Shown: positions 7,185-51,977 of the stretch, one piece after another
Position numbering within the stretch: position 1 is the stretch's first letter
Layout: the number at the start of each line of letters is the position of its first letter
IMG/VR virus record: IMGVR_UViG_3300009551_000015
Coordinates: 1-62,546 of that record
Reading direction: 5' to 3' (one strand)
DNA from: a virus
DNA: 62,546 nucleotides
Translations under genes and position numbers: made by a program
The notes under the pieces: model-generated
Told to the model about the DNA's origin: nothing
Seen by the model: only the letters and a program-made list of their open reading frames with translations
Database searches by the model: none

Positions 7185-7190
7185 GTCAGC

Positions 7191-7637: not shown

Positions 7638-7695
7638 AAAGAGGACTCAGGACGGCTCCAGTATTCTGGATGCCGGTACTTCAAGGAGAACAGCG

Positions 7696-8007: not shown

Positions 8008-8030
8008 TTGATTGGTGCTCCTTTTGGTTA

Positions 8031-8228: not shown

Positions 8229-8234
8229 TTGCTC

Positions 8235-8304: not shown

Positions 8305-8346
8305 CCACCGACGCGCCCCGCCGATGCTCCCTGCCTCGAATAAAGC

Positions 8347-37800: not shown

Positions 37801-39012
37801 CGCTACATTCTCGCGTGTCGCGCCGACGAAGCTACGCTGGACCTCAAGATTTCGGATTGCCCCGCGAATGGAGCCCTCGAGGATAGCGGTATCTTTGGTT
37901 TGCTCGGGCGCAATTGTCGACCCGGGGCGAACGGCCCGCTTCTTCTCTTCGTCGCGCGCATCCTGGATGCCTTTCGCGCGGCTGCGAAGTGCGTTTATCT
38001 CTTCGTCGTAGGCGTAACGCAACTCTCCATCGAGTTGATCCTGTGCCTTCTTTCGCTCTTGCTCAGTTTTGGCCGCGCGAAGCTTTTCCTGTCCGCGATC
38101 GGTAATGTCCTCGACGCGACCAGTGAACCCGCCATGGCCCGCGAATTTCTCTTCGCCGAAAAGCTCCTTCTGTAGATCCTTGGTGCCCGACTCCCCGATG
38201 AATTGCCGGAACAGGCCAACGCTTTGCTCTTTGAGCAACTTCTCCAGGTTCTCGAGCGCCTTGCCCAACGATGACGTGAGCTTATCGGCTGAAACAACCG
38301 CTTCATCAAGACTGAGCTTGAGCGTGTTCTGCCGACGGCCCTCCAGTTTCGCAATCTGGTTCTGCAAACGGTCGTTCGTTACTGCTAGTTCGTCATTGGT
38401 GGTCCGCAGCGGATCGTTCAGGTCGCGGAATGCGGCTTTCAGCTTACTGGGAGCCGACTCCAACTCTGTCAGCTTCTCTTTCAGCGTTACCGCCGCGTAG
38501 ATGATAGCAATCAGGCCAATCGCGCCTACGCCAACGCCGAGCAGCGCCCCCTTGAAGCGCATCACCTCGTTGATGGCTTCGGCAAAGGCGTTCGTCATGC
38601 GCCCCTCGAGCACATCCTTGGCCCCCAAGATGGCAAAGCGGGCGTTAAATCCGCTGCCACCTTCTTCTGCTGGCTTGGCCGCGGGAGTGCCTACCGATCT
38701 GTACGACTGCGCCAGCCGCTGGTTCGCAATCTCAAGCTTTCGAGCGCTATCTTCCAGTTTTTCGTACTGAGCCTGTGTACCTACGCCGACACTCTGAATA
38801 GTGGACGCTAGGCTCGCGTAGGATCGCTTGAGCGTGTCGACACGGAGCTCTAACGTGGCCGTTTTAATGGCCGATGCAGAAAATGAGTCGCCAATTCGCG
38901 CAGCGCCACCCTTGATGCTTCCCTCGGCAGCCGCGAATTTGCTCTGTACCTGCTCAAGCCCTTGAATGCCGGCGACAAAATCTAGCCGGATCGAGCCTAC
39001 GCTTTTAGCCAT
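34894..39012 (-). CDS. Tape measure protein with C-terminal repeats
   Basis: 1372 aa. Coiled-coil rich over residues 1-850 with an early membrane-like patch (LGVGVGAIGLIAIIYAAV, about 160) as usual in tape measures. Length predicts a tail near 200 nm at 0.15 nm per residue. The C-terminal third contains imperfect repeats: GDGYKGGFIFSVFSDLFKKK near 914 and a variant near 1051; EGLPRLPSGLIDRTG near 950, 1087 and 1195; PTGxxxDPxHV near 870, 1004, 1107 and 1213. The final segment (ATLSGVLAKGGDMVPGSAYM-type) is Gly-rich. The ATG overlaps the gp10-like stop. Confidence 0.92.
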   Translation of the reverse strand: MAKSVGSIRLDFVAGIQGLEQVQSKFAAAEGSIKGGAARIGDSFSASAIKTATLELRVDTLKRSYASLASTIQSVGVGTQAQYEKLEDSARKLEIANQRLAQSYRSVGTPAAKPAEEGGSGFNARFAILGAKDVLEGRMTNAFAEAINEVMRFKGALLGVGVGAIGLIAIIYAAVTLKEKLTELESAPSKLKAAFRDLNDPLRTTNDELAVTNDRLQNQIAKLEGRRQNTLKLSLDEAVVSADKLTSSLGKALENLEKLLKEQSVGLFRQFIGESGTKDLQKELFGEEKFAGHGGFTGRVEDITDRGQEKLRAAKTEQERKKAQDQLDGELRYAYDEEINALRSRAKGIQDARDEEKKRAVRPGSTIAPEQTKDTAILEGSIRGAIRNLEVQRSFVGATRENVAFTGRKEELEANKSNGKPGDVIAERLQALRDRLGEVQAKLEAVGQTDAFRAQVEGIADGIKAVDQLNKELKQYHQTLDPANEAKVKAIALQIKQTEVETQYQTKLATSDRDIANRITSLYLLADATNKGYEATKRASVETALAQKFGENFTDPKRQSDIEQQRQGLRAVYDKEHANQIKGTVEGLGEQIKLEKDLAAAQSLGAEATRLVALQHRLEQIAKEGGVEATKKLVQAEIDLYNAQRANLSSEQIAKLNQRLEAIKAISAAEAKGAEAVRQATLEAKYAELAKSGASPAEVTATRGVDEAQHQQEITSEAAKRANVYRDQLEKLNEQVQATEKLRGTEADQVGVELALKELEDQRLQIIAHQALAVGTLTGGYKAFFTTIEQEAEKPGKILYDGMHSAVDRASSELSKLATGQKTEWKRTFQDLGQQIIKAQIESDIKKALGSIADRFPQLKLPGAAGQVKRPTGNPNDLIHVYDHAKDTGTPKTSSSPATPPFIPIPVKSSPSGQFGDGYKGGFIFSVFSDLFKKKSSGVSNTEHREPSISEGLPRLPSGLIDRTGRQDNATEPTQPKVELSPDLLPISEKPSAVPSAKEPGHPTGKIGDPVHVSIDDKGTLEQTPGQPIGTSPDSIQRTTASGKGLGGGLFGDGYQGGFVFSAFKDLFKKKGDNGANAEPWAPRVSEGLPRLPDGLIDRTGRHGKTSGPTGDQSDPIHVIPEVGAGGILGSVADATRSTEETGANREEDLLSIFKKVIRKNSEDGNSDKGITFPDLDLSKRRGEDGTQDAAKGNENFPRLPDGLIDRTGIPAKKPTGNPGDPVHVTQDSDSSGPLAAVFGQGLAAGGGLASILGSLGGGAGAASAGTESVSSTIEFGGFLAKGGDMVPGSAYMVGEYGPELVVPRNAGTVIPNHQLGGSGGDTHIHNYDLRNADIGAAGRLRQMQQQTELSAVRNSQAVAAETNKRTPKGAR

Positions 39013-39445
39013 ATATGGTCTTAATTTCGCTTTGAATTACGGAGGAGAAAACCTCTACTGCGCGCTCTTTGCAAGCGTCAAATGCAGGCCGCAGAAACGG
39101 GTGTGGTGGAACGGTGCCAATCTCGGCCTTCTTCGGCTTATGGCTTACCATGCGGTGCCCATATTCCACCCACAGCGCACGGTAGCCCTCGTTTCCGAAC
39201 CCTACCGAGCCAGCAACAAACCTGAACAGCGGGTCAACCCGGATGACATGGACGATGGCATCCCGAAGGTGCCGTTTTCCCTCTTCGGTTTCGCCTACTG
39301 GGGTACGAGTGCGAACCTCTGATTCAATAACATCAATGGCCGCCTCGACTGCCTTAACAAAGGCTCCCTCAAGTCGCTTCTGTAACTCTTTTAGCTGGCG
39401 GTTTACGTCATCGAAGCCAGAGATGCGAACGCTTGAAGCGGCCAC
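39005..39445 (-). CDS. HK97 gp10-like tail-completion protein
   Basis: 146 aa. SVRISGFDDVNRQLKELQKR, then IVHVIRVDPLFRFVAGSVGF, WVEYGHRM and PPHPFLRPAFDACKERAV are the signatures of HK97 gp10-type neck proteins. These normally lie between head closure and tail terminator; here it sits just upstream of the tape measure, after the tail chaperones. Function (neck or tail completion) is inferred by family. Confidence 0.85.
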   Translation of the reverse strand: MAASSVRISGFDDVNRQLKELQKRLEGAFVKAVEAAIDVIESEVRTRTPVGETEEGKRHLRDAIVHVIRVDPLFRFVAGSVGFGNEGYRALWVEYGHRMVSHKPKKAEIGTVPPHPFLRPAFDACKERAVEVFSSVIQSEIKTIYG

Positions 39446-39448
39446 TGA

Positions 39449-39772
39449 TTATGCCCCTTCGTATTCCGCGTTCAGACACCTTCGAAGCGCATCTGTTACA
39501 CCAACAGGGTCGACGCTCAGTAAACTTCCCGCTTCTTCGATAGTGATGGATGGCTGTGCTGTTCTCAGCAAGGCGTAGAGAATGCCGCGCATCTCTTTGG
39601 CGTTTGCTGGGCCAGATAGCGCCCGTAGCAGGTGGCACTTGGCGACATCTTCGGCATCAACCACTTTGTTGAAGTCGTAAATCAGACGCAGCGCGCCCTT
39701 ACTCTCCTCATCGTGCGGGTATCCCCCGTCAACTCCTTCAACTACCAGCGTCACAAACTTGTCTAGTGGCAT
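39449..39772 (-). CDS. Tail assembly chaperone candidate 2
   Basis: 107 aa, helical. Lies between the larger chaperone and the tape measure, the usual G/GT position. Start overlaps the end of the 217-aa gene by 10 bp in another frame. No slippery heptamer is visible at the join, so a frameshift fusion cannot be claimed. Content (ALRLIYDFNKVVDAEDVAKC; then PSITIEEAGSLLSVD) is consistent with a phage tail chaperone. Confidence 0.6.
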   Translation of the reverse strand: MPLDKFVTLVVEGVDGGYPHDEESKGALRLIYDFNKVVDAEDVAKCHLLRALSGPANAKEMRGILYALLRTAQPSITIEEAGSLLSVDPVGVTDALRRCLNAEYEGA

Positions 39773-40416
39773 CGTTCGTATTTCTCTAGCTCCCTAAGCA
39801 TCTTTTCGCCGAGGTCCAACGGTTCGTCCTCTGGCGCTTTGTGCATGATCCAATCCGCGGCTTCGGCTGGCTTCTTCAGCTTGTGCTGCGAGAAGTTCAC
39901 TATCACTTCGCAGATGCGACCGACCAGTAACTCTTCGCGACGCATTCGCGCTACCGATACCTCCCGCAGTTCGTGAAAGAACCGCGGCGTCATCGATAGA
40001 AACTCGTCATCGCTCAGCCCAAGTTCCAGCCGAGCGAATGCCGCTGTCTGCGCCCACCCCATCGACTTCGCCAGCAGATCGCTGATCTTGCCAGTGGGCT
40101 TCTTCGGCGGCGGTTCTGGCATGGACACCAGAAACGCCTTACTGACAGCCTGGCGAATGGCTCCCAGTTTCCGAGGCGTCACCATCGCGCCGACTTCCTG
40201 CGCGGTGATCAGCGGCTCTGACCTGCGCAGCATCGCCCACAAGAGCGCTTGCAAAACTTTGGCGCTCGGCTGGACGAACGCCTCGATGCTGGTAAGCATG
40301 TCGGCGCCGGTTGCCTCCTGGCAGTCCAGCAGAACGCCGTAGGTTATGACTAGTCGCCAATCGCGCCCGCCGAGTGGCAGTATGACGGCATCGGTAAGCC
40401 TCTCTGCCAGCGACAC
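39763..40416 (-). CDS. Tail assembly chaperone candidate 1
   Basis: 217 aa, starting MSLAERLTDAVILPLGGRDW; helical with a Pro/Lys linker (EPPPKKPTGKISDLL) and C-terminal helices. Position directly after the tail tube gene matches gpG-like chaperones that load the tape measure. No homologous family is named by motif. Confidence 0.65.
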   Translation of the reverse strand: MSLAERLTDAVILPLGGRDWRLVITYGVLLDCQEATGADMLTSIEAFVQPSAKVLQALLWAMLRRSEPLITAQEVGAMVTPRKLGAIRQAVSKAFLVSMPEPPPKKPTGKISDLLAKSMGWAQTAAFARLELGLSDDEFLSMTPRFFHELREVSVARMRREELLVGRICEVIVNFSQHKLKKPAEAADWIMHKAPEDEPLDLGEKMLRELEKYERCH

Positions 40417-40417
40417 G

Positions 40418-40867
40418 TTAGGCTACGGCGTAAGTTGCGGCGGAAGCGAGTTGAATATCGGCCGAGAATTCGATGGGCTTTTCGTTTTCGAACGGTCCCA
40501 GTTTGAAACTCGAGAAGAATCCCGTTCCGGTGATGGTCAGGGTCTTTGCCAACCGCTGAACCGGAGCAGTAATCGAGAATGCGAAGATGTCTCGCGCGTT
40601 GGCGTGCGTGGTGATTGCCAACTGGCTGGCATCGCCAAGGTAGTTGCCCGAGAAAGAAAGCGTTCCCTGCTTGATGAGGCCCGGGATGTACTCGGAAGTG
40701 TTGCCCGGCGAGAGCAGGTGCGTAACCTCGATCTGGTTCATGCTGATCGGGTCAAGGCTGAAGGTTTTGACTTCGGAAACCGCCGCAAGGGGCGATCCGA
40801 TTTGGAATTGAGATTGTGCGCCAGTGTTGGCCTGAGATGCGTACAGTGTGGGCGGCGTAAACGACAT
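40418..40867 (-). CDS. Major tail tube protein
   Basis: 149 aa. Beta-sandwich of the gpV/HK97 tail-tube type: SFTPPTLYASQANTG, SFSGNYLGDASQLAITTHAN, RLAKTLTITGTGFFSSFKLG, EKPIEFSADIQLASAA. It is the tail gene with the strongest leader: GGAAGGAG behind a CCGCC-GUGA-GGCGG stem (40880-40893). That hairpin covaries with the one in front of the major capsid gene. Confidence 0.88.
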   Translation of the reverse strand: MSFTPPTLYASQANTGAQSQFQIGSPLAAVSEVKTFSLDPISMNQIEVTHLLSPGNTSEYIPGLIKQGTLSFSGNYLGDASQLAITTHANARDIFAFSITAPVQRLAKTLTITGTGFFSSFKLGPFENEKPIEFSADIQLASAATYAVA

Positions 40868-40879
40868 TTAGTGCTCCTT

Positions 40880-40893
40880 CCGCCTCACGGCGG
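40880..40893 (-). promoter_or_regulatory. Leader hairpin of the major tail tube gene
   Basis: On the transcript CCGCC-GUGA-GGCGG: a 5-bp stem with a GNRA tetraloop, directly before GGAAGGAG and the ATG. Flanked by ACTA upstream. The same arrangement, with changed but paired bases, precedes the major capsid gene. Confidence 0.65.
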
Positions 40894-40970
40894 TAGTTTT
40901 TGGTATTAGAAAGATACCGGGCGTCTCGCGACGTTCCGGCTACGGGTGTCTCTCGACATTCCGAAAGGTT

Positions 40971-41342
40971 TTAACTCGAAAGCGACATCGGTCCTGTGAC
41001 CGTAAACGTTATTTCTTGACGCCCGATATCGGGGGTGAGTCTGCGGTAAATATCGCCGTAACTGGTCAAATCTAAAGACGGCATCTTATAGTCGGCGACG
41101 AACCCAGTAGCATCAATGCGTATTGTTCTCTGTGTCTTCTTATCTCGTAGGAACACCACGCAATCACTAAGACCGAAATCTGGCATGGCTGTAACCGGAA
41201 CGATCTTTGGCGTCTCGGGGATCGTGAGCTTCGGAGGCTCCACAATGATCGCCTGATCATTCATAGACGGCATGCCTGCAATCACTGGCGCAACGGTCGC
41301 ACCGATGCCGAATAGCTTGAGAAAGTTTCGTCTGTCAGTCAT
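40971..41342 (-). CDS. Small tail-region protein with Tat-like signal
   Basis: 123 aa. Begins MTDRRNFLKLFGIGATVAPV, an almost perfect twin-arginine motif (RRxFLK) followed by a hydrophobic stretch and an A-G-M end. The remaining part is beta-rich (PKIVPVTAMPDFGLSDC, QEITFTVTGPMSLSS). Lies between the tail terminator and the tail tube. Twin-arginine export of a virion-region protein would be very unusual; it could be a head-tail joining protein that merely resembles a Tat substrate. Confidence 0.65.
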   Translation of the reverse strand: MTDRRNFLKLFGIGATVAPVIAGMPSMNDQAIIVEPPKLTIPETPKIVPVTAMPDFGLSDCVVFLRDKKTQRTIRIDATGFVADYKMPSLDLTSYGDIYRRLTPDIGRQEITFTVTGPMSLSS

Positions 41343-41344
41343 GG

Positions 41345-41746
41345 CTAGTTCGTATTTACGTAGAACAACTCGTACTCGACCATGCGCCGATAGTTGCGCG
41401 CGTCAGGGTCGAAAGGGAAATCCATCATGTCCGAGCGAAAGCAGCTATGCAGGAACGTCGAATCAGGATCTGGTAGCGTTCCGCGATGCCCGTGCAGCAC
41501 TGTGTTGATCGCATTCGCCAGCGTCATAACACTTGCTGGTGTAGCGCCAAAGCAGTCGATCTGAATGCGCGCCTCAGCGAATCCCGTGTAAGTCTGCAGC
41601 GTCGTGTGCGGGCGGTTCGATATGATGCGGTACGTGTAGGCCGGCAGCGTCGCATCCTTCGGCAATTCTGCTAGAAAGCCTCCAGTGGCCATTGGCGGGC
41701 TACCGAGCCCAGCCTGAATTATCATCACGAGTCCTTTTTCGAGCAT
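41345..41746 (-). CDS. Tail terminator protein (DUF3168-like)
   Basis: 133 aa. MIIQAGLGSPPMATGGFLAE, then YTYRIISNRPHTTLQTYTGF and FYVNTN end match phage tail-completion DUF3168 proteins, which stop tail tube growth and join tail to head. Immediately downstream of the head closure gene, normal order. Confidence 0.78.
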   Translation of the reverse strand: MLEKGLVMIIQAGLGSPPMATGGFLAELPKDATLPAYTYRIISNRPHTTLQTYTGFAEARIQIDCFGATPASVMTLANAINTVLHGHRGTLPDPDSTFLHSCFRSDMMDFPFDPDARNYRRMVEYELFYVNTN

Positions 41747-42087
41747 TAGTCAGCCTGTGAGATCGCGACGCAGTTCAGGATCAGCATGATGTTGCGCTTG
41801 CCTGGGTTCTCGACCGACTTTATGATGTACCAGTCTCCATCGGAGTTTACGGTCATTTTTGGCAGAATCCCCGGTTGGTAGTAGATCTTCAGCACCAGCA
41901 TCAACTCAGTAACGTTCTGCCCGCCGCGAATCACATCAGTGCCGCTTACTGGGTCGACGCTTGCCCAGACGTTCGCGAGAAAGAGCGACTTACCGATCTC
42001 TGAGCCTGTCGTGCCATCAGCTACCGTCTGCGCGTAAATGTCGATCTTGCTATCTAGCCCACCGGGGTCTAGCTTGGGCCAGATCAT
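41746..42087 (-). CDS. Head closure protein
   Basis: 113 aa. LDSKIDIYAQTVADGTTGSE, then SVDPVSGTDVIRGGQNVT and LVLKIYYQPGILPKMTVNSD are typical of head-tail joining (SPP1 gp16 / Phage_H_T_join) proteins. ATGA-type overlap with the connector gene upstream. Confidence 0.8.
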   Translation of the reverse strand: MIWPKLDPGGLDSKIDIYAQTVADGTTGSEIGKSLFLANVWASVDPVSGTDVIRGGQNVTELMLVLKIYYQPGILPKMTVNSDGDWYIIKSVENPGKRNIMLILNCVAISQAD

Positions 42088-42755
42088 ACGACGCTCGGTG
42101 CCGCTCCGTAGTGAAGTGCGGTCGTTACCGCGTAGGGATATTCAGCCATCGCACTAGCGCCAATCTCAAACGGCATCCGGTTATTGAACCAAGCCGATAT
42201 GAGCAGCTTCATCCCGTTCTTGACCAGTGCGCCAGTTTCGGACCACCACGGATCAGATGGTGTTAGGCCGCTGGTGTAGCGAATCGTGATCGCCGAGGTT
42301 GGCCATGCGGTGAAGAAAGGCCATGTCTTGTTCGGGTAGGGCGCGACAATCCCGGGCCGCTTCGCAGTGTCCACCACGTAATCAACGCCCTCAGCCAGTG
42401 TGGTTATCGCCCCGTTGATGTCCTTGTACTGGATCAGGGTCACGGAGACTAGCGGTGGTGCGCCCACCTCAATCTGGTAGCCAGTCCAATAGTCCAGCGA
42501 CATGTCCCACATCTTGACCACCAGGTCACGGCGCTGCGCTATTTCCGCTTGCACGCGCGCGCCTGAAATAAGCCCCGAGATCAGGTCATCCTCGGCTGGT
42601 TCAGTTGGCGACCGCTGCGGAACCTTGAGATAGTCCTTGACCTCGGCCAGCGTCAGCGGCTCTACAAAGCTCTGCGTCGGTGACGTTACGGTCAGCTTCG
42701 AACTGGGATAGTTCGCAGCGAAACCGTACGGGGCGACGAGGCTTCCACTGAACAC
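42084..42755 (-). CDS. Head-tail connector protein (gp6-like)
   Basis: 223 aa. VEPLTLAEVKDYLKVP near residue 30, LISGLISGARVQAEIA, then ITIRYTSGLTPS: the arrangement of gp6-like head-tail connectors, including HK97 gp6 and phiE125 gp8 types. It binds the portal in the neck. Stop overlaps the next start. Confidence 0.85.
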   Translation of the reverse strand: MFSGSLVAPYGFAANYPSSKLTVTSPTQSFVEPLTLAEVKDYLKVPQRSPTEPAEDDLISGLISGARVQAEIAQRRDLVVKMWDMSLDYWTGYQIEVGAPPLVSVTLIQYKDINGAITTLAEGVDYVVDTAKRPGIVAPYPNKTWPFFTAWPTSAITIRYTSGLTPSDPWWSETGALVKNGMKLLISAWFNNRMPFEIGASAMAEYPYAVTTALHYGAAPSVV

Positions 42756-43463
42756 TTAGAGTGCCTCCAGTTGCAGCGGGCCAGCCCACTTGAACGATGA
42801 ATCAGCAGGGAATAAATCGCCAATCACCATATGGCGATACCCGTCTTCGTAGGAATTATTGCCGTCAATCTCGTTGTACCAGCGGAATTTCCGTATCCGA
42901 TCCTCTTGGTACATGTAACCGAAGTGCAGAAGGCGAACCGGAAGAGGCGATTGCGTTCCGAGTAACTGAATTGGAGCCGACGAACAATGTAGGTTGCCAC
43001 CATTCTTGTTCCTCATGAACGTCAAATCATGAGATGTCAGCCGGAACAAAGATGGGCGAGTGAAGCTCTTGTACCAGCGATCGACGCGCACCTGATCGGT
43101 TCTATCCCAAAGATAAAGAATTCGGAATGAAGCACAGATAATCCCCGCTGCTATTGCTTGCTTAACGAGTGGCACATCGTCCTGATGTAAGGCTTCATCG
43201 CCGTCGATCATGATGCAGTGGTCGCCAATCTGAGCTCCGTTCTCCCACACCTTCGACAGCAGAAACTCACGGTCGCGCGCCTCTTGCAAACCTTCGAACG
43301 TGGAGCGATAGACGATGCAGCCCAGAGACTCGCAGATTTCCGGCGTCGCATCGGCGCTGTGATCATCGAGGATGAGAATCTTGTCGCAGACGGGCTGAAT
43401 GGAGCGAATTACACGTTCTATCCAACGAGCCTCGTTCTTTATACGGAGAAGACCGAATATCAT
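42756..43463 (-). CDS. GT2-family glycosyltransferase A
   Basis: 235 aa. IFGLLRIKNEARWIERVIRS is a typical start of GT2 'glycosyl transferase, family 2, WcaE-like' enzymes; ILILDDHSADATPEI (nucleotide-sugar loop) and the DGDEA DxD-type motif follow. No membrane helix. One of four GT genes lying between the capsid and connector genes, so probably not structural. Could modify a virion protein, host glycan or, less likely, DNA. Confidence 0.88.
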   Translation of the reverse strand: MIFGLLRIKNEARWIERVIRSIQPVCDKILILDDHSADATPEICESLGCIVYRSTFEGLQEARDREFLLSKVWENGAQIGDHCIMIDGDEALHQDDVPLVKQAIAAGIICASFRILYLWDRTDQVRVDRWYKSFTRPSLFRLTSHDLTFMRNKNGGNLHCSSAPIQLLGTQSPLPVRLLHFGYMYQEDRIRKFRWYNEIDGNNSYEDGYRHMVIGDLFPADSSFKWAGPLQLEAL

Positions 43464-43469
43464 ATAGTT

Positions 43470-43649
43470 ATGGAATTCCCTGAAATCAAGGGCTCACTCG
43501 TTTACATAAGAGCGGAAGATGGGTTGCTTTACCCGCTCGATCCCGAACTAGAAACCGTGTTCCGCGAAAGGTTCGCCGAGTACCTTGAGGATCAATTGCT
43601 CAATGGAACAAGCGACAGCACTGATACTTCAATTGGTCTGGCCAGATAG
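43470..43649 (+). CDS. Plus-strand small protein within the GT cluster
   Basis: 59 aa: MEFPEIKGSLVYIRAEDGLL, then helical and Ser/Asp-rich. Exactly fills the gap between two minus-strand glycosyltransferase genes. No clear ribosome site. The composition is protein-like and no minus-strand frame competes. Confidence 0.5.
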   Translation: MEFPEIKGSLVYIRAEDGLLYPLDPELETVFRERFAEYLEDQLLNGTSDSTDTSIGLAR

Positions 43650-44240
43650 TTAGCCGTAGAACCACATCACCTCTGGAACGCGCCCATGCGTTCCGCGCGC
43701 AGCCGCAGCCTGACAGAGTAGCCCATCGGAACACGACGGCCCGTTGACCTTGCCCGGGAACCCGCCGATCGCATCGAACATCGACTTGCGAATGAGGAAC
43801 CCGCCCTTGTCGATCTGGCCGCACACGGGCGACACTTGCTCAATGCTGTAGTTTTCCTTCCACCGCGGCGCCACTAGGTAATCGCAATAGACCAGATCGA
43901 GGTTGTCGCGCTCGGCCAATTCCATCAACTTGCGGCAATAATCTGGCGCATACCAGTTGTCATCAGAGGGGAAGCCGAGGTACTCGCCGCGCGCCTGTTC
44001 TGCCGCAATCTCCGCTGCTGCGTAACATTCGCCAGTGGTCCTGAGATACGTAATCGGAATCTGAGTGAATGCCCGCACTGCCGACACCACCGCCGCATTC
44101 TTGCCCGCTGTTTCGCTGGTCGGCGCGTTGTCCGTGACGATGATTTCCATGTCGGTGTACGTTTGCAGAATCAGCGATTGCAGACACAGCCGCAGCCATT
44201 CGGGGCGGTCGTAGACGCTAACGATTAGGGTGAGCTTCAT
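43650..44240 (-). CDS. GT2-family glycosyltransferase B
   Basis: 196 aa from ATG at 44238-44240. LTLIVSVYDRPEWLRLCLQS, MEIIVTDNAPTSE and FPSDDNWYAPDYC (a DD(N) DxD-like site) form the GT-A fold. The end (GGFPGKVNGPSCSDGLLC) is the acceptor region. Member of the four-gene cluster. Confidence 0.88.
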   Translation of the reverse strand: MKLTLIVSVYDRPEWLRLCLQSLILQTYTDMEIIVTDNAPTSETAGKNAAVVSAVRAFTQIPITYLRTTGECYAAAEIAAEQARGEYLGFPSDDNWYAPDYCRKLMELAERDNLDLVYCDYLVAPRWKENYSIEQVSPVCGQIDKGGFLIRKSMFDAIGGFPGKVNGPSCSDGLLCQAAAARGTHGRVPEVMWFYG

Positions 44241-44538
44241 CGCGGAGTTTTGCTTTGCAGGTGGAGCAGATGTACAGCCCATTCGACCAGCCCATCAAGC
44301 CTCCGCAAACAGAACACTCGACAAGGCCAGCAGTATCTTCGAGTTCCATCGAAACCGTGAACTCCTTCGACTGATCGGGTTCGACTACCACCCTCTTAAC
44401 GTTGAACGGCACACCGTTAACTAGGGCATGTTTGACATCCAAAATTGGATGCTTGGCGATAGTGAAAGAAAAAGTGCCAGTGGGGTCTTCTGGGAGTATT
44501 TTGAGCGTCCCATGAAAGTCCTTTGAATCGTAAGTCAT
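44218..44538 (-). CDS. Hypothetical protein with C-terminal zinc ribbon
   Basis: 106 aa from ATG at 44536-44538 (ATGA overlap with GT C). Beta-rich N-terminal part; C-terminal VECSVCGGLMGW and YICSTCKAKL form a C-x2-C / C-x2-C ribbon. Sits inside the GT cluster and overlaps GT B by 23 bp. Confidence 0.65.
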   Translation of the reverse strand: MTYDSKDFHGTLKILPEDPTGTFSFTIAKHPILDVKHALVNGVPFNVKRVVVEPDQSKEFTVSMELEDTAGLVECSVCGGLMGWSNGLYICSTCKAKLRDEAHPNR

Positions 44539-45275
44539 GGCGTCACTCCCCATTTCTGTTGGAATAGGCCCGCGTTCTTATGAAAACTCAACTGGTTGTG
44601 CGGTCCACCGCGAAACGAACTCGTCAGGCTCCCATGATCAACAAAGCAGCCATCATGCACGCCAACCTTGAGCCCTGCGCGCGTGACGGATTCGCAGTAG
44701 TCCCGATCCTCGACGCCATAGTCGAGGCAATAGCGCTCGTCCAGCAAGCCAATCTTGTCGATGGTGCGACGAGGAATCAAAACGCAAACGAATGCGATGT
44801 GCGGAACTTCGCGCAACCCGATGCCCTTGGGAAACTGCAGTGGCTGACCAGTGACGTTCGTGACCGCCCCGATTACTCCGAACTCGGGATGCTCCTCGGC
44901 TGCGCACTGGAGCGCGGTGAAGCCACCGGGCGATTTCAGCAGGGCATCGTCATTGAGAAGCACAACATCGTCGGTGCCAGCGGCTACGATGGCACGATTA
45001 CAGTTCCTGGCAAATACGAAAGGTTTAACTCCACCGACGACTTCCACCGTTATTCCATCAACCCAAAGTGGTAACGACGGCATATTAGGATCAAGCATTC
45101 CTGCCAACTGAACATAATGACCGTCTAATGCTGAGTCCCCAAGGTCGAGGTGGTCACTTGCAACCATTAGGCGCGCAGAAGGGTCCATCTCATGGACTGC
45201 CTTAATGCATGGCAGGAGGTTATTCCAGTTTTTGCTCGGGATGATTACGGTAAGGCCGTTCATAGCTTTGTCCAT
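44535..45275 (-). CDS. GT2-family glycosyltransferase C
   Basis: 246 aa (M1 or M5). LTVIIPSKNWNNLLPCIKAV, then DVVLLNDDALL (DxD-like NDDA), VIGAVTNV and RAGLKVGVHDGCFVDHGSL: rhamnosyl/galactosyl-type GT2 with the usual C-terminal GVHD-x-H motif. Full-length catalytic domain with no membrane span. Confidence 0.88.
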   Translation of the reverse strand: MDKAMNGLTVIIPSKNWNNLLPCIKAVHEMDPSARLMVASDHLDLGDSALDGHYVQLAGMLDPNMPSLPLWVDGITVEVVGGVKPFVFARNCNRAIVAAGTDDVVLLNDDALLKSPGGFTALQCAAEEHPEFGVIGAVTNVTGQPLQFPKGIGLREVPHIAFVCVLIPRRTIDKIGLLDERYCLDYGVEDRDYCESVTRAGLKVGVHDGCFVDHGSLTSSFRGGPHNQLSFHKNAGLFQQKWGVTP

Positions 45276-45853
45276 GCGCTGCCGAGCGTTCGGGGGCTAG
45301 TGTTCTGACTATGTATCGTGGCGTGCATCAGGTCGCCAGCATCAGCAACAATAAATTCCCTGTTAAATGCCGCCATGTTCGAGAAAATCAGGTCTTCGCC
45401 GATTTGCATGGATGGGAACTTGTTCTCTTCCCAGTAGGACTTTCGATAGCAGAGCGAAGTCCCTAGAGCGTAGTCGGCGGCCCCTTGGTATTGCCACCAG
45501 TTGGTTCCGTCAGTGAACCGCATCGAGTTGTATCCGGTGACGGATTTCCCGCTCTCAACCAGCCTTGATACTTGGTCTGTGACCCTGTTCGGTGCGCAGA
45601 ATTCGTCATCGTCCCAATGGACAATGACCTCTCCCCGCGCGTGCTGGCATCCAAAGTTGCGCTTGTCCCCGATGTGCATGGTCCGGTCGATGTGGATGAG
45701 TCGAATTCGCTGGTCATTCGGCACCAGGTCGCGAACGTCTTCCCCGTCCGCTACTATCAAAAGTTCGAGAGGTCTGTATGTTTGCGCCAGGAAGCACTGA
45801 ATCGCTTGCGGGAGCCACGTTCGTCGGTTCCTCGTGATGCACAGTGCCGTCAC
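45260..45853 (-). CDS. GT2-family glycosyltransferase D
   Basis: 197 aa. TALCITRNRRTWLPQAIQCF, YRPLELLIVADGED, then IVHWDDDEFCAPNRV carrying DDD, the metal site. Its first 140 bp overlap the end of the small head gene upstream in another frame. Overlaps GT C by 16 bp. Confidence 0.88.
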   Translation of the reverse strand: MTALCITRNRRTWLPQAIQCFLAQTYRPLELLIVADGEDVRDLVPNDQRIRLIHIDRTMHIGDKRNFGCQHARGEVIVHWDDDEFCAPNRVTDQVSRLVESGKSVTGYNSMRFTDGTNWWQYQGAADYALGTSLCYRKSYWEENKFPSMQIGEDLIFSNMAAFNREFIVADAGDLMHATIHSQNTSPRTLGSAWTKL

Positions 45854-46055
45854 GAAACGGTTGCCGCGCGCTCACCTCGGGAGCTTCGGGCGTTATCACC
45901 TTGGTCTGGTAGACGATGCGCGGCGGTTCAGCTTTACGGGCCGTTCCTGCGTCTATCAGTTGCTTGCCGCGATCGTCGTCAATCGTGAAGGGCTGACCAG
46001 CGGCGAAAGTGCCTAGGTCGGTGAATGTTAGCTGTCGGTTTGCTATGAGTTGCAT
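45714..46055 (-). CDS. Small protein downstream of the capsid (DUF7302-like)
   Basis: 113 aa from ATG at 46053-46055. QLIANRQLTFTDLGTFAAGQ and IDDDRGKQLIDAGTARKAEP match the short, basic 'LIA-R-L-F' proteins found downstream of capsid genes in many phages. Long disordered tail rich in Ser/Pro/Arg. Its 3' part overlaps GT D by 140 bp out of frame. Confidence 0.7.
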   Translation of the reverse strand: MQLIANRQLTFTDLGTFAAGQPFTIDDDRGKQLIDAGTARKAEPPRIVYQTKVITPEAPEVSARQPFRDGTVHHEEPTNVAPASDSVLPGANIQTSRTFDSSGRGRRSRPGAE

Positions 46056-46264
46056 ACGTGGTGCTTGCTGGAATACCTGCTTCCTTTGAATTTGGAGAGA
46101 GTGAAGCAACCGTGAAACCTTAGCCGAGCATTCTTTGGAACCCGTTCATATCGAACGGCAGGATAAAGAATTGGTGACTTGTGCGGGTTACACATGTCTC
46201 GAATGTCTTGCAAGAGTTTCTCGTTCTCGATACATGCCGTACGTGCCTTGTTCTCGTAATTCAT
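46043..46264 (-). CDS. Small basic hypothetical protein (uncertain)
   Basis: 73 aa with ATG at 46262-46264. Basic, with four Cys; no ribosome site and composition unlike its neighbours. It occupies the gap between the capsid terminator hairpin and the DUF7302-like gene. Could be spurious. Confidence 0.35.
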   Translation of the reverse strand: MNYENKARTACIENEKLLQDIRDMCNPHKSPILYPAVRYERVPKNARLRFHGCFTLSKFKGSRYSSKHHVCNS

Positions 46265-46276
46265 AGAAGTGAAATG

Positions 46277-46324
46277 AGCGGGCCGCCACTTAGGAGGGGA
46301 GCGGACGGCCCGCTGTGCCGCATC
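46277..46324 (-). terminator. Strong hairpin downstream of major capsid gene
   Basis: Perfect 9-bp stem AGCGGGCCG/CGGCCCGCT around a 30-nt loop, followed on the transcript by CATTTCACTTCT. A weak terminator or mRNA-stabilising hairpin that would raise capsid mRNA over downstream mRNA. Confidence 0.6.
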
Positions 46325-46369
46325 AGTGCGGGGATAATCCCGCGCGGCTAGCTATTTGGACGCAGGAGG

Positions 46370-47569
46370 TTAGTAACCAGCCGGCGAAGTGGCGAAGGTG
46401 CCCGTGATAAATGCCTGCGGGCGATAAACGAGCAAGGCGAGCCGTTTCTCAGCTCGGATCGTGATCAAGTTCTTTTCGAAGTTGTCACTGTCCTCGGTGC
46501 TGATGTCGACTTGCAGTTCCATGCGGTCGCGAATCTCGACCGAAGCCGGATCGCCGTTCCCGACGAGGAAGGTTCCCGAAGGCATCGCAGTGGTGGACAC
46601 CAGTCTGCGGTTCCAGAGCGTCGGCAGGGAGTCATTCATGGGATCGCCGACAAGGTACTTGCCAAAGCCATCTTTTGTGCGAACGATGTTCCACCAGTCG
46701 CGCGGATTGAGCACGATGAACGTCGGCGATACTTCGTCCAGGATTTCAACCTGCTCAATTGCCGCACTCAACTGGTCGATGCGCTGATATCCAGCGGCGG
46801 CCGACAGTAGAGCAACATTGAAAGCGGATGCCTGAGTGACGAGCCCATTCAGATCTTGGCCAGTACCAGAACCCGACAGAAGCTGCAAATCCTCGGCCTT
46901 GTTGACCGAGTAGGGAAGCGCCGAGCGAATGTAGCCTTCCAGTTCCGTGAAGTCGTCCAGCACCTGCTTGGAGGCCTTAACGAAGACTGCGAGCGTTTGC
47001 ACGGCCGCAGAAGCAGTCGTAAACTGCACGGTGGTTTCGGCCTTCGCGCTGCCCTCAACCTGGGGCGAAGCGATTGCCATCGGCACACTGACCTTCACGT
47101 AGTAGATCAACGGCGATGTGGTCGGGCGGCTGGGCAGCAGATCGCGCACATGCAACTGGCGACGCGCTTCCGGTACGATACCTACCCGACGCTCGATGCC
47201 GATTGGGGCGCCAGTGGCAAGGGTGAATCCAGTGCCGCCTGTGAGGATGGTTTTCTGCTCAAGGATGTCGCTCGCCTGGTCACCCGACAGGGTAAATGTC
47301 GCGCGGCCCTTTTTGTTCTTGATGAGGCGGGATACGTCGTCATCTTCCTTGAGCGTGTCGGCGATCGACTTCATCTGCGCCGGGCTGTTCTTGTGCTGCT
47401 CGACCAACTTCAGGTCGATGGCATCCAACTGCTTCTGCAGATTGTCGATGGTGGTCTTCGTTTCGGCGAGCACTACGCCTTGATTCTTGAGTTGCTCGTC
47501 GGCTTTCTTGTGGTGATCTTGGATGGCCGAGATAGTTTCAGCCATCTTCTGTTCGAGAGTTTGTTCCAA
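46370..47569 (-). CDS. Major capsid protein, HK97 fold
   Basis: 399 aa from TTG with GGAAGGAG 6 nt upstream. Residues 1-105 are a scaffold-like coiled coil (delta domain, AETISAIQDHHKKADEQLKN). The core includes ILTGGTGFTLATGAPIGIER, RDLLPSRPTTSPLIYYVKVS, TVQFTTASAAVQTLAVFVKA and FIVLNPRDWW. These are usual for HK97-type capsids; the delta domain is probably removed by the protease upstream. The TTG start is unusual for so abundant a protein, and a hairpin leader precedes it. Confidence 0.93.
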   Translation of the reverse strand: MEQTLEQKMAETISAIQDHHKKADEQLKNQGVVLAETKTTIDNLQKQLDAIDLKLVEQHKNSPAQMKSIADTLKEDDDVSRLIKNKKGRATFTLSGDQASDILEQKTILTGGTGFTLATGAPIGIERRVGIVPEARRQLHVRDLLPSRPTTSPLIYYVKVSVPMAIASPQVEGSAKAETTVQFTTASAAVQTLAVFVKASKQVLDDFTELEGYIRSALPYSVNKAEDLQLLSGSGTGQDLNGLVTQASAFNVALLSAAAGYQRIDQLSAAIEQVEILDEVSPTFIVLNPRDWWNIVRTKDGFGKYLVGDPMNDSLPTLWNRRLVSTTAMPSGTFLVGNGDPASVEIRDRMELQVDISTEDSDNFEKNLITIRAEKRLALLVYRPQAFITGTFATSPAGY

Positions 47570-47581
47570 AGTGAACTCCTT

Positions 47582-47596
47582 CCGTCATCGCGACGG
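47582..47596 (-). promoter_or_regulatory. Leader hairpin of the major capsid gene
   Basis: Transcript CCGTC-GCGAT-GACGG, a 5-bp stem, then GAAGGAG and TTG. The flanking ACTACCG and GGAAGGAG match those before the tail tube gene; the third stem pair changes together (C-G to T-A). Position and base-pair covariation suggest a functional leader. Confidence 0.65.
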
Positions 47597-47621
47597 TAGT
47601 TTGGGTTTCCCGCTTCCGGGG

Positions 47622-48470
47622 TTACTGCAACACTGCTGACTTCAACCGATCGAGAAGTCCTTCGATTGCCGAGTGGTCAGGGACCGGCGCGGGCTTTGTT
47701 TCGGGAGTTCCGGCTGCTGACTTTGACGTGGGCTCGGCATCCATACCGTCGGGCTCGGCGTCGCAGTTCAGAAGTGGAGAAAGGATATCGGCCGCGCTCA
47801 TCATGTGAGCATGGGCGGCTTTGAGATTCATTTGATTGGCGGCGCTAATCATTCGGCCAGCCTTGAAGTCGAGGTCATCAGGTACGTTCGGGTTTCGCGC
47901 CAGCGACATCAACGCGGAGCAAATCTCCAGCGCCTTGGGGCGGTCTTCTTCCGACAGTGGTCCGAAACTCTTCATTTCGGCGATGTGCTCTTCGATGACA
48001 TCGAGCACCCTGCGAAATGACTTGACGCTGACTACGCGGGCCTGTTCATTCATGGGAAACTCCGTTAATGTGACTTCGAATAGCTTGAGTTCTTTCAGGT
48101 GCCTGACATTTCCCTCGGCATCGGCTTTGACCGTCTGATAGCCAATGGACATGCCCATGGGCATCCCGTTATCGCGGTAGAACTTGAGGTCGGAATAGGC
48201 GTTTTTTCCGTCGGGCTTGTCGAGGTTGATTTTCCCGACCGCCTGAAGCCCAGTGCCAATGTCCGACAATTGCGCCAACCCGATGCGAGTCTTGTGGTTG
48301 TCTAACAGCCGAACCTTATTACCGCGCTCTTTGATGGTCTTAGTGAACGCGCCCGGGTCCACAACATCACCGCCCATGTCCACGTTTCCGTAGACGCTGG
48401 CGATGCCGATAAACTCACCAGAATCGGAAAGTTCTTTCACTTCAAACGGGATAGCTAATTTTTCTAGCAT
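47622..48470 (-). CDS. Prohead protease, HK97-type (S78)
   Basis: 282 aa. AIPFEVKELSDSGEFIGIAS, NVDMGGDVVDPGAF, then catalytic His in LLDNHK, Ser in GMPMGMSIGY and Glu in KLFEVTLTEFP. This arrangement is that of the herpes/HK97-type assembly protease. The C-terminal ~110 residues are a charged linker that may act as scaffold. AAGGAG site. Confidence 0.92.
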   Translation of the reverse strand: MLEKLAIPFEVKELSDSGEFIGIASVYGNVDMGGDVVDPGAFTKTIKERGNKVRLLDNHKTRIGLAQLSDIGTGLQAVGKINLDKPDGKNAYSDLKFYRDNGMPMGMSIGYQTVKADAEGNVRHLKELKLFEVTLTEFPMNEQARVVSVKSFRRVLDVIEEHIAEMKSFGPLSEEDRPKALEICSALMSLARNPNVPDDLDFKAGRMISAANQMNLKAAHAHMMSAADILSPLLNCDAEPDGMDAEPTSKSAAGTPETKPAPVPDHSAIEGLLDRLKSAVLQ

Positions 48471-48478
48471 GGGACTCC

Positions 48479-49792
48479 TTATGTGTCGACGATTTTCGGG
48501 TCTTGTGTAGCCAATGGCGTACCGCCCGGCAAAGTTTGCATGTTCAATTGAATGTGGTAATCGTCACCACCTTCAACTGGATTCCAATCTTCGAGGTCGC
48601 GCACTTCGTTCTGACTGGCAATGCCGTTCTGCAGCATCGTTGCGTAGCCAGCCATGCGCGTCGCGAAATCTCCGCGAAGTAGCGCGTTCAGGTTGTGGCG
48701 CCAGAAATAGCCCTGCGTCTTCTCGTCTGGCGTCAGTACGCAGCGCCATAGTTCCTGCTCCCAGCGGGTCAGCCATGTGGCCAGGGTCAGCTTGACGAAC
48801 TCGAGAGCCAACTGCTCAATGTTGCTGAATGTCGCTCGGCTCAGATCGCCTACCAGGTGCGGCGAAACTAGGAACCAGCGGCAAATCTCGTGGATGCCGA
48901 ACAGCCGAGACTCTAGCAGTTGCTGGTCTTTAAGGCTAAGCCCAGTTTGCTGGTAATCAACGTTTGGCGTCAGTAACGGCGACTTGTGAGGTTGAGCGTA
49001 AGTATTGTCCCAGTCGTTGACGAATTTCTTGGTATCCTCTTCGCTGCGAAACGGCTGCGTCAGTTTAAGGTTGTACGGGAGCCGGCCGCCGCGGGCATAG
49101 AAGTTGCCGACGTTACGTTCCGCTGCGAGCGCCGTTCCGATCGACTGGCGCCCCTTGCTGAGCACCGAGTAGCCGACCACGCCATCATCACCAATGCCGC
49201 GGATGTGCAGGATGTCCTGCGGTTCCCCGCGCACTACTGTGAATGTCTTCTCTGCCGCGTTGCCGTCCTTGACCACATAGCACAGACGGCTCGACTTGTC
49301 CCGATCTACCTGCACGCGGTCAGGGTGCACAGGGTAGAGTTCCATCGCGACACCCGTACCGCTGCGCCGGGCGATCTGCGCATAAGCGTTACCGCGGAGC
49401 ACACAGTGAGAGGTCAGCGTCTCGCTGAACCCCATAGCCGTCATCTCGCTGTTGGGCGCATTCTTCAGCGCCGAGTACATCGGATGCGCTTCAGCCTGCT
49501 GCTTATCGGTCCCCTTGCCCTGCTGCATCATCACGCACGGGAGAAAGCCCACCGTCTCGCTAATGATCCGATTGCATGCCCACACAACGGAATGGTTCAG
49601 CGCCGTGTTGATGTTGACGACTTCGTTCGCATATGTCGCCCCGCTGCTGCCCAATGCCGCAGCGATCCCGTGAAAGCCATGCCGCTGGTACCACTCGGGC
49701 GACTCTCCCAGGCCAAACGTGAAACTCTTGAGCCCAAGAGAAAGCGGGGGCTCTGGCGTAAACAGCGCCTCAAGGGCACCGCGAATGGACAC
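48479..49792 (-). CDS. Portal protein, HK97-type
   Basis: 437 aa with GTG start right after the terminase stop. YQRHGFHGIAAALGSSGATY, NTALNHSVVWACNRIISETV, YPVHPDRVQVDRDKSSRLCY, VVGYSVLSKGRQSIGTALAA and a long central crown/wing are all typical. It forms the dodecameric packaging ring. Normal length. Confidence 0.95.
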   Translation of the reverse strand: MSIRGALEALFTPEPPLSLGLKSFTFGLGESPEWYQRHGFHGIAAALGSSGATYANEVVNINTALNHSVVWACNRIISETVGFLPCVMMQQGKGTDKQQAEAHPMYSALKNAPNSEMTAMGFSETLTSHCVLRGNAYAQIARRSGTGVAMELYPVHPDRVQVDRDKSSRLCYVVKDGNAAEKTFTVVRGEPQDILHIRGIGDDGVVGYSVLSKGRQSIGTALAAERNVGNFYARGGRLPYNLKLTQPFRSEEDTKKFVNDWDNTYAQPHKSPLLTPNVDYQQTGLSLKDQQLLESRLFGIHEICRWFLVSPHLVGDLSRATFSNIEQLALEFVKLTLATWLTRWEQELWRCVLTPDEKTQGYFWRHNLNALLRGDFATRMAGYATMLQNGIASQNEVRDLEDWNPVEGGDDYHIQLNMQTLPGGTPLATQDPKIVDT

Positions 49793-51535
49793 TTAGCCCA
49801 CACTCCACATGCCGGTATAGGAAACGCCGCCGCACTCAATCATCATGGATGCACGGCGAAAAGCCGTAATAAGGCAGACTGCTGGATCGATAAAGTTCTC
49901 CGTCCGCTCTTTCCGGGGAAATACTTCTCCCTTCGCATCCTCACGTGCCACTACGTTACCCATAGCTGTCGCAAATACCGGATTTCCGTCATGGTGAATT
50001 CGTCCCTCAGCAATCGCTGCTTCAAGTTTCTTCATTGGGTCACTGAGGAAATGGGCATTCTGCGGTATTTCAACAGCCGTCGCGCCTGTTGCTGCCGCGA
50101 CTCTCTGGGCAAACTGCTCAGCGTTCCATGGATCAAAGCAAATTTCTTCGCCGCGGAACCTAAGCACATCAGTGATTGTTTCCCGCTCGATTTGCTCATA
50201 GTCGATACGGCATCCAGGAGTAGTAATGATGTCCTTATTCAGCGCCCACCCTTGGTAGTGCTGCAGTTCTGGCTGCGTAGCGCGATCTTCTGGTAGATAG
50301 AACCGGCCGAACACGTAGTAGTGATCTCGGCCGTCAATTTCTTTCTTGAATATAATTACCCGGGCGGTGATATCGATCTTGGTCGAAAGGTCAACCGACA
50401 CAATGCAGGGCAGGCCACGGAACTCTTCCGGGTTCAACGACTGATCAGCGAGTTCATTCCATCGCTGAACATTAAAGTAAGCGTTGTTCGCACCAAGCCA
50501 AATGTTGAAATGCTTAGTTTTAACAACTCCCTGCTTGCGGGCATTATTGATCGCGTTCTTCTGTTCGGTCTTTAGAAAATCCTCGTAAACCGATACGCCG
50601 TAATTGGGGTTCGCTTTACGTAGCGACTCCTCGGAAGTCCAATCGTCTCCGGCATCAATGGTGTAGATAATCGCGAACAGTTCATCGCGAGATGCCGAGC
50701 CACCGAGAACCTTTTCGCAGTCCTCTTGCAACTGCTTGCAAGGCCCTGCTAGGTTATCTCCAGCCGTTGTAATCGCAAGCAGGAGCGGTTGCAGGCGAGC
50801 GCCCATGCCCGTTCGAAGCGTATCGAATAGGGTGTCTGAATCGTGCTCATGGTACTCGTCAACGATCCCGCAATGCGGGCTAGCTCCGTCTCCAGGCTTT
50901 CCAATGACTGGCTCAAAGCGCGAACCGTCCGCGGCAATAAAGAGTCTCTGCGCACCAGGCGTAATGCCGAAAGCTTCCTGTAGCGCTGGCGTGCGCTTAA
51001 CCATGTCAAGCGCCGGGCGAAAGACCTCCCACGCTTGCTTCTCGGTTGTGGCACCGGAATAGACCTCTGCCCCGAACTCTCCGTCAGCGGCGAACATGTA
51101 AAGCCCAATTCCGCCAGCAATGATCGATTTGCCATTTTTGCGCGGTACGGCGATGTACGCCAAAGAGAAGCGCCGTAATCGGCTTTCCCGCTTGAGCCAG
51201 CCAAACAGAACGCAGAGGACGAATACCTGCCACGGTTGAAGCTTGATTGTTTCCCGCTTAATCGCCCAGTGGCCTTTGACATGTGGAAGCTTCTCAATGA
51301 ACCGGCATACGTGATTAGCTTTCGCCTCATCGAAAATGTAAACCCAGCCGCGCTTTGCCCTCGCCAGATCATCCAGGTGGCGCTTGCACGCCAACCTTAC
51401 CCATTTACAGGCTAAGACCCTGCCCTCTACTACATCCCGGGCATACTGATTGGCAATCGCCGCGTGCGTGAAAGCGGGCGGTTCAGTTTGTGAATGATGG
51501 AGCGTTGCCGCGGGCTTCTTCGGCAAGGTCGGCAA
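49793..51535 (-). CDS. Terminase large subunit
   Basis: 580 aa. ATPase with Walker A at 130-137 (VPRKNGKS), Walker B/coupling Glu at 223-230 (GIVDEYHE), and an RNase H-like nuclease domain starting at 381 (VDLSTKID). This is the HK97/lambda-like packaging motor that cuts and threads DNA. Overlaps the small subunit gene by 53 bp, so coupled. Confidence 0.96.
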   Translation of the reverse strand: MPTLPKKPAATLHHSQTEPPAFTHAAIANQYARDVVEGRVLACKWVRLACKRHLDDLARAKRGWVYIFDEAKANHVCRFIEKLPHVKGHWAIKRETIKLQPWQVFVLCVLFGWLKRESRLRRFSLAYIAVPRKNGKSIIAGGIGLYMFAADGEFGAEVYSGATTEKQAWEVFRPALDMVKRTPALQEAFGITPGAQRLFIAADGSRFEPVIGKPGDGASPHCGIVDEYHEHDSDTLFDTLRTGMGARLQPLLLAITTAGDNLAGPCKQLQEDCEKVLGGSASRDELFAIIYTIDAGDDWTSEESLRKANPNYGVSVYEDFLKTEQKNAINNARKQGVVKTKHFNIWLGANNAYFNVQRWNELADQSLNPEEFRGLPCIVSVDLSTKIDITARVIIFKKEIDGRDHYYVFGRFYLPEDRATQPELQHYQGWALNKDIITTPGCRIDYEQIERETITDVLRFRGEEICFDPWNAEQFAQRVAAATGATAVEIPQNAHFLSDPMKKLEAAIAEGRIHHDGNPVFATAMGNVVAREDAKGEVFPRKERTENFIDPAVCLITAFRRASMMIECGGVSYTGMWSVG

Positions 51536-51977
51536 ACTCGTTCTTGGGTTTTTCAGGTGATACGCTCAACTTCGTCCGATCGGCTGGAGTCATCCCCAAA
51601 GCAGCGAGCAAACTTCGCAGCGTGGAAAGTTCTCCGCTCGAGATCGTCTCGCGACGGATCAGGACCTTAACATCATCTGCCGAGAGATCCGCGCACCTTG
51701 AAAGCTCAAGGATGGTCGCGGTAGACATCTCTCGCGTAGCTTTCTCCATCAGCCGGCAGCAAAGCTCAACTGCCCAGCGGTCGGATATCTTCAACACGCC
51801 GTACGTGGACATCTCGACCAACTCATTCCAGAAAGCAATACAGTCAGCCGGAAGGCGGCCAGGCGATTCTCCGAGCGGGCGAGATTCCTTCGGCTCGCTT
51901 GGGCGCCGCCGCTGAGGATCGTGGCGAAATGCACCGGATAATTCCAGAACTGCTGAAGGCTTACGTGGGCGCGACAT
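51483..51977 (-). CDS. Terminase small subunit
   Basis: 164 aa, MSRPRKPSAVLELSGAFRHD start and several helices; P27/phage-type small terminase by its early RxRKP and GRLP...WNELV segment. Lies directly before TerL; an HNH protein precedes it, a layout typical of cos phages that need HNH for packaging. Weak ribosome site; an operator-like sequence (51988-51997) is upstream. Confidence 0.82.
   Translation of the reverse strand: MSRPRKPSAVLELSGAFRHDPQRRRPSEPKESRPLGESPGRLPADCIAFWNELVEMSTYGVLKISDRWAVELCCRLMEKATREMSTATILELSRCADLSADDVKVLIRRETISSGELSTLRSLLAALGMTPADRTKLSVSPEKPKNEFADLAEEARGNAPSFTN

Follow-up and report, generated by a model that had tools for sequence, protein, structure and literature searches.

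Tandem glycosyltransferase (GT) genes among phage head genes are a feature of the mycobacteriophages of cluster O (Corndogvirus; Firecracker, Catdawg), in which an O-methyltransferase gene and three tandem GT genes lie between the portal and the protease/capsid genes. According to the passages concerned in two papers that cite Freeman 2023 (PMC11600133, PMC12363180), the capsid and tail tube of cluster O phages are glycosylated. The window analysed here, a 62,546-base virus record (IMG/VR record IMGVR_UViG_3300009551_000015), has tandem GTs among its head genes in common with Corndogvirus, but in a different slot, the gap between the capsid and head-tail connector genes, where four GT genes (GT-A, GT-B, GT-C and GT-D) follow a small capsid-adjacent gene, p131. 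Catdawg gp33-36 gave no significant match to the profiles of the GT families of the window (best E 0.0008 when every filter was disabled), and we know of neither a p131-GT overlap nor a variable sugar module in cluster O. Thus, the arrangement is convergent with that of cluster O in place and purpose, and differs from it in its enzymes, its modular sugar genes and its coupling to a capsid-adjacent protein. The best explanation for the whole, which we consider reasonably probable, is a virion glycosylation locus of a temperate-phage lineage in which GT-A is tethered via a ribosomal slip on p131.

The closest parallels to the p131/GT-A junction come from eukaryotic viruses. The relevant passages of Firth et al. 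(PMC3498833) describe UCC_UUU_CGU as the +1 frameshift site of influenza A PA-X, with related sites in other eukaryotic viruses, and those of Nibert et al. (PMC5052127) describe UUU_CGN for the amalgaviruses of plants. The junction shares with these an identical slip codon, next codon and direction, and differs in that the window belongs to a bacterial DNA phage and the two proteins that the proposed slip would join are a glycosyltransferase and the product of a gene next to the capsid. Capsid and tail proteins of phages that are extended by frameshifting (Ig-like domains; the +1 event of Listeria phage PSA) are a further likeness: the sections of PMC5009743 that treat them report recoding by which virion proteins acquire an extra module, which relatives carry either in frame or out of frame; in the window lineage, by contrast, the appended module is an enzyme. 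The excerpts of the PRFect paper (PMC10885494) state that a general forward motif has not yet been identified and that frameshifting may be used by genes that are fused in one genome and separate in another. Literature listings that paired phage frameshifts with glycosyltransferases or with decoration contained no comparable case. The features of the window that meet at this junction are the following.

46370..47569, minus strand: major capsid protein, HK97-type (Pfam Phage_capsid 8e-42, phrog_10)
45714..46055, minus strand: p131, zero-frame product of 113 residues (ATG at 46055; phrog_2616)
45852..45860, minus strand: proposed +1 frameshift site CCG_TTT_CGT (TTT at 45857-45855; Val/GTG codon of GT-A at 45853-45851)
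45260..46055, minus strand: predicted p131N-GT-A +1 fusion of 264 residues (natural in-frame fusions have equal spacing)
45260..45853, minus strand: GT-A, a GT2 glycosyltransferase (PF00535 1.2e-18; invariant W-DDD)

An alternative start of p131 in the list of open reading frames (ORFs), TTG at 46109, would give 131 residues. The N-terminal domain of p131 spans about 50 residues, occurs also in phages that lack the cassette (the tail that follows it being confined to cassette phages) and has weak matches in two cultivated capsid neighbours, pAN_06 and Mesorhizobium phage P1 gp35; these match Pfam DUF7210 and, below the cut-off, DUF7302, and p131 itself has no Pfam match, to these two families included. 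Past this domain, the tail of p131 measures 53-84 residues in 39 of 45 cassette phages (five in-frame fusions and a single short form make up the others), compared with 0-43 residues in 28 of 30 phages without GTs. In most cassette phages this tail extends over the 5' end of GT-A, and in all 40 non-fused loci having both genes GT-A lies in the +1 frame of p131.

The junction was scored in 101 GT-A loci, 64 from the earlier set and 37 on new contigs that served as a test set; 66 were overlapping, 11 detached and 7 fused, and 17 were dropped for lack of the TRNR anchor motif. The junction codon was TTT in 65 of the 66 overlapping loci (39/39 earlier, 26/27 new) and in none of the 18 loci with detached or fused GT-A, and CGT followed directly in 60/66. 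Four anchor-less loci with p131, read by hand, all had TTT. The Fisher value of 2e-17 overstates independence, not the trend, because the 66 loci form 54 clusters at 80% DNA identity. As background, TTT accounts for 338 of 1,572 Phe codons (21.5%) in the capsid, portal and TerL genes and for 33 of 102 at other positions of these p131 frames. When the IMG/VR collection was searched with a DNA pattern that left this base free, 28 of 28 contigs had TTT (21 distinct sequences, many already known).

These counts also bear on the simpler possibility that GT-A starts independently at its GTG by translational coupling to p131, the overlap being ordinary and the frameshift absent. Overlapping genes are frequent in phage operons, and 46 of the 66 overlapping loci, the window included, have GTG as the GT-A codon that follows the slip; the other codons are GTC, GTA, GCG and ATC, and 19/66 loci have no start codon at or before this position. 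Moreover, the +1-frame Phe codon is unreachable by same-frame initiation in 53/66, and TTT is kept although TTC would serve p131 equally well. Detached GT-A genes have an ATG or GTG upstream (11/11) and lose the TTT. Natural fusions also occur, with p131N running directly into GT-A, and in four loci also into GT-B; in close fusions 64-68 residues precede the Val, as compared with 67 in the window. We regard independent initiation as unlikely. Several observations nevertheless tell against a frameshift. The Val codon conserved in GT-A largely dictates the CGT behind TTT, so that the evidential weight lies on the TTT, the absent starts and the three-way pattern of overlapping, detached and fused genes. 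L239, an overlapping locus, reads TAC instead, and three others read TTT_TGT. Across the 66 loci there was no signal of a downstream RNA structure (mean z -0.28), and the frequency of Shine-Dalgarno-like cores was no different from that in the detached controls (10/46 against 3/11). Furthermore, GT-A of the window has a GTG at its start, so that ordinary initiation is possible there. A stimulatory structure or Shine-Dalgarno element is dispensable in some known frameshifts, as stated in the part of PMC5009743 concerned, and the two tests lend weight to neither side. Considering all of these patterns in the sequences, programmed +1 frameshifting very probably yields a p131-GT-A fusion, an arrangement that the initial annotation of this stretch had overlooked.

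The presence of the cassette follows the relatedness of the capsids. We scanned IMG/VR for capsid relatives and mapped the best 80 of 406, unthinned for the few near-duplicate contigs among them, using a query of which 16 of 17 rows came from cassette phages; because of this query bias, the restriction to the best 80 and the near-duplicates, the frequencies are not population estimates. At a capsid identity of at least 42% (42 loci), 30 of the 35 loci with at least 600 nucleotides past the capsid gene carried a GT, and where the connector was visible GTs lay in the capsid-connector gap in 21/24, the gap measuring 1,289 to 7,635 nucleotides. Among 38 loci with more distant capsids, GTs were found in 2, and in the gap in 1 of the 34 with a connector. 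The initial annotation had proposed comparing syntenic relatives and had assumed that short genes are normal in this slot, which agrees with the single small gene in a gap of ~290-440 bp in cultivated capsid relatives and with the GT-free gaps of 193, 298 and 399 nucleotides in the remaining three of the 24 close relatives. The capsid tree comprised 93 rows (47 with GTs, 41 without, 5 unscored); on it the trait changed 4 times compared with 29.5 in shuffles, and none of 500 shuffles was as low. This count of 4 is approximate, as L116 and L126 were scored as lacking GTs but differ in gene order, and in L122 a GT-like gene was overlooked by the profiles; L007 is absent from the tree owing to a split capsid match. 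In L122, which has no GTs in the gap, a protein of 511 residues (~6951-8486, plus strand), apparently with two GT domains, lies between the connector and head closure genes. The tree result marks the cassette as an old trait of the lineage that has been lost in places, and not as a recent insert.

Gene maps of the relatives were built with profiles of trimmed domains. The commonest order is capsid, p131, GT-A, GT-B, a stretch of 0 to ~6 kb, GT-D and connector; in L037, L039, L040 and L065 the cassette is located 3' of the connector, and in L053, L055 and L104 GT-D precedes GT-B. The stretch between GT-B and GT-D varies by phage and encodes a DegT/DnrJ/EryC1 aminotransferase, NAD-dependent epimerases, a PIG-L deacetylase, methyltransferases (one linked cluster comprises 35 ORFs), and TOD1/MUCI70 and other GTs. 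As read from these gene contents, the layout is that of a polysaccharide locus in which the ends are constant and the middle varies. The description of the segment as an inserted cargo module was therefore misleading, given that the cassette follows the capsid tree, has a conserved overlap with a head-region gene and carries extra sugar genes in relatives. In L051 the slot between GT-B and GT-D is occupied by a TIR-domain gene (3284-4273, plus strand; TIR_2 1e-30), perhaps a defence gene exploiting a shared hot spot.

The reach of the individual families differed between searches. Among 50,697 phage records, tblastn with GT-B gave no match at E 1e-5, and at E 1e-3 GT-A had 10 weak matches, GT-C 11 and GT-D 1. 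Single queries against IMG/VR retrieved 36 relatives for GT-B, 7 for GT-A and 33 for GT-D, and none for GT-C, though this gene occurs in L011, L040 and L106. Caudovirales GX15bay (L094, 9030-14153) resembles the cassette in having several GTs, a methyltransferase and one homologue of GT-D (27%; hidden Markov model E 6.7e-23), but its GT cluster lies upstream of TerL and not in the capsid-connector gap. On bacterial contigs of several phyla (L080, L083-L085), homologues of GT-A, GT-B and GT-D cluster away from recognisable phage head genes, some of them within ORFs of 590-1150 residues.

The remaining genes from GT-B to the connector are given below.

44535..45275, minus strand: GT-B, divergent glycosyltransferase of GT-A fold (predicted structure; invariant NDDA)
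44218..44553, minus strand: zinc-ribbon ORF, in the window only among the loci first mapped (two CxxC pairs, sub-threshold Pfam match)
43650..44282, minus strand: GT-C, GT2, with few relatives (PF00535 1.2e-17)
42756..43463, minus strand: GT-D, GT2, candidate protein-priming enzyme (PF00535 1.9e-7; GmaR/SunS/ThuS likeness)
42084..42755, minus strand: head-tail connector, adaptor Ad1 (phrog_40 7e-10)

All four GTs had been annotated as GT2 enzymes with intact DxD-type sites. The family assignment stands for GT-A, GT-C and GT-D, which passed the curated cut-off of Pfam Glycos_transf_2 (PF00535; 1.2e-18, 1.2e-17 and 1.9e-7); GT-B remained below the Pfam cut-off (PF13641, 0.0011), though its predicted structure, like that of GT-D, is a GT-A fold (predicted local distance difference test scores, pLDDT, 88.6 and 93.2). 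The acidic motifs are invariant in the alignments of GT-A (W-DDD, 17 sequences), GT-B (NDDA, 20) and GT-D (DGDE, 18), in agreement with intact sites. Among the matches listed, beyond which other families may lie, the GT-D profile ranks GmaR (1.6e-9), SunS (2.7e-6) and ThuS (5.5e-6) first among solved structures, and the GT-D model aligns best with ThuS (Z 17.6, 195 residues, root-mean-square deviation 3.6), then SunS (Z 15.9), the next other enzyme reaching 14.0. GmaR glycosylates flagellin, and SunS and ThuS bacteriocin peptides, in the cytoplasm. GT-D thus has these enzymes as its top relatives in profile and in structure, at a distance, since SunS and ThuS show 15-20% identity to GT-D over the alignments. 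The matches of the GT-A profile include heparosan synthase and chondroitin synthase. Taken together, these likenesses are compatible with one priming enzyme and several extending enzymes, and by sequence and model GT-D is the most likely candidate for attaching the initial sugar to a side chain of Ser, Thr or Cys.

The cassette belongs, as judged from gene content, to a temperate-phage lineage of which at least one member, L081, is a prophage of Acidobacteriota. The window has an integrase gene at 3364-2174, and the complete syntenic set occurs in L081, a contig titled Candidatus Sulfopaludibacter sp. SbA3, a metagenome-assembled genome of a genus that we take to belong to the phylum Acidobacteriota; an integrase lies ~46 kb from the end of this contig, with unrelated genes past it. 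Across 297 Acidobacteriota genomes a close GT-B was found in this genome only (1.6e-96), the next matches (8e-28 and weaker) being probably generic GT2 enzymes. After the integrase, the L081 prophage contig also encodes a helicase of 1754 residues with an MrfA zinc domain and an Eco57I-type methylase (L186 12298-17562, L187 420-4919), a defence-island-like pair. The relative L105 is UViG 2522125054, whose naming style suggests, we presume, an isolate genome and a possible laboratory host.

With regard to function, the initial annotation had offered virion glycosylation and seroconversion as the natural ideas. The former is the best supported: by its sequence context, the cassette is probably a late-expressed virion glycosylation system whose acceptor would be a virion protein, a reading that rests on GT-D being closest to the protein-modifying enzymes GmaR, SunS and ThuS. 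Some results weigh against this reading. The GT-B model reaches Z 19.1 both with chondroitin polymerase and with polypeptide GalNAc-transferases, and because of this tie the fold alone cannot name the acceptor. The capsid relatives L007 and L121 do not have the cassette, which makes it dispensable. In addition, the pairwise identities of GT-B and GT-D barely track those of the capsid (rho 0.05 and 0.18), and as this congruence is weak, and is likewise weak for tail genes, neither co-inheritance nor swapping is claimed for these two enzymes.

A change of the host-surface glycan by the lysogen, leading to seroconversion or superinfection exclusion, would suit the temperate lifestyle indicated by the integrase gene and the prophage relative, and GTs with sugar enzymes typify surface polysaccharide loci. 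In contrast to gtr-type seroconversion clusters, none of the four GTs has a membrane helix (19-residue hydropathy maxima 1.01-1.47), and membrane-spanning GtrA/GtrB-like proteins, a flippase and a bactoprenol transferase were not found among the window proteins scanned against Pfam and PHROGs. The place of the genes within the late head operon, their link to the capsid-adjacent p131 and the protein-modifying kin of GT-D also speak against this explanation, which we regard as improbable. That the enzymes modify host proteins for takeover or counter-defence, and not the virion, seems slightly less probable still; the kin of GT-D act on flagellin or peptides, cytoplasmic enzymes can reach host proteins and the L051 slot holds a TIR-domain gene, but the late-operon position, the link to p131 and the conserved head-gene neighbourhood point to the particle. 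Some phages glycosylate their DNA with transferases of their own. Such a role is very hard to credit here, as base-modification genes were not noted among 40 window proteins scanned against PHROGs and the GT2 enzymes are related to protein and polysaccharide transferases. Overall, the observation made in the initial annotation is confirmed, and its interpretation is partly supported.

For virion glycosylation, we propose a theoretical scheme. The head operon would be transcribed late in infection, and ribosomes on p131 would slip +1 at UUU_CGU, a fraction of the product being p131N-GT-A; p131 would accordingly exist in two forms, the zero-frame protein of 113 residues and the 264-residue p131N-GT-A. 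The p131 domain would dock GT-A, presumably at assembling heads, although such a targeting role is an evenly balanced proposition. The cytoplasmic GT2 enzymes would then assemble a glycan on a particle protein, a GT-D-type enzyme priming and GT-A, GT-B and, in relatives, the variable sugar enzymes extending and decorating; candidate acceptors are the tail of p131 itself, the capsid and the tail tube. Whether the lineage-wide UUU_CGU slip welds a GT onto a capsid-adjacent protein, delivering the enzyme to the growing head, with modular and fast-changing sugar genes setting the virion glycan, we judge to be a matter of equal chances.

Concerning the rest of the window, the order on the minus strand is TerS, TerL, portal, protease, capsid, p131, GT-A, GT-B, zinc ribbon, GT-C, GT-D, connector, head closure and tail genes, the labels TerL, portal and protease being assigned from sequence and location alone. 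The four GTs do lie between the capsid (47569-46370) and connector (42755-42084) genes, as had been reported. Owing to the overlaps (16 nucleotides between GT-A and GT-B, 19 between GT-B and the zinc ribbon, 65 between the zinc ribbon and GT-C) and to the GT-D stop abutting the connector start, the cassette genes look like a single translation unit of a late operon. A promoter and terminator scan of 39000-52000 was uninformative, with fewer matches than in shuffles, no minus-strand promoter in 42084-46109 and a single terminator-like site at 46290. The annotated zinc-ribbon gene does have two CxxC pairs, but its Pfam match is sub-threshold, and among the loci first mapped it has no homologue outside the window's own stretch. 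An annotated plus-strand gene at 43218-43649 was rejected, as codons 1-82 run antisense to GT-D, the 59 codons in the free gap gave no tblastn match in 287 fetched loci, and the only PHROG match was at 0.0068. Among the tail genes, a 123-residue ORF (40971-41342, minus strand) begins with a twin-arginine-like signal, MTDRRNFLKLFGIGATVAPVIAG; its sole homologue among the loci first mapped lies within the sugar cassette of L025 (13986-14357). The replication-side genes include a radical SAM protein and a PAPS-reductase-like protein (54895-55896 and 60086-60946, minus strand).

Virion glycosylation is so far known from a few mycobacteriophages. If our reading is true, the modular glycan locus carried lineage-wide by uncultured soil phages would render this trait common among phages of the environment, with acceptors and enzymes already predicted. 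The frameshift would then represent a prokaryotic use of a +1 motif from eukaryotic viruses and show an enzyme tied to particle assembly. The locus may also account for some of the GT2 'auxiliary metabolic genes' in soil viromes, which here resemble particle-building genes and not genes of host metabolism.

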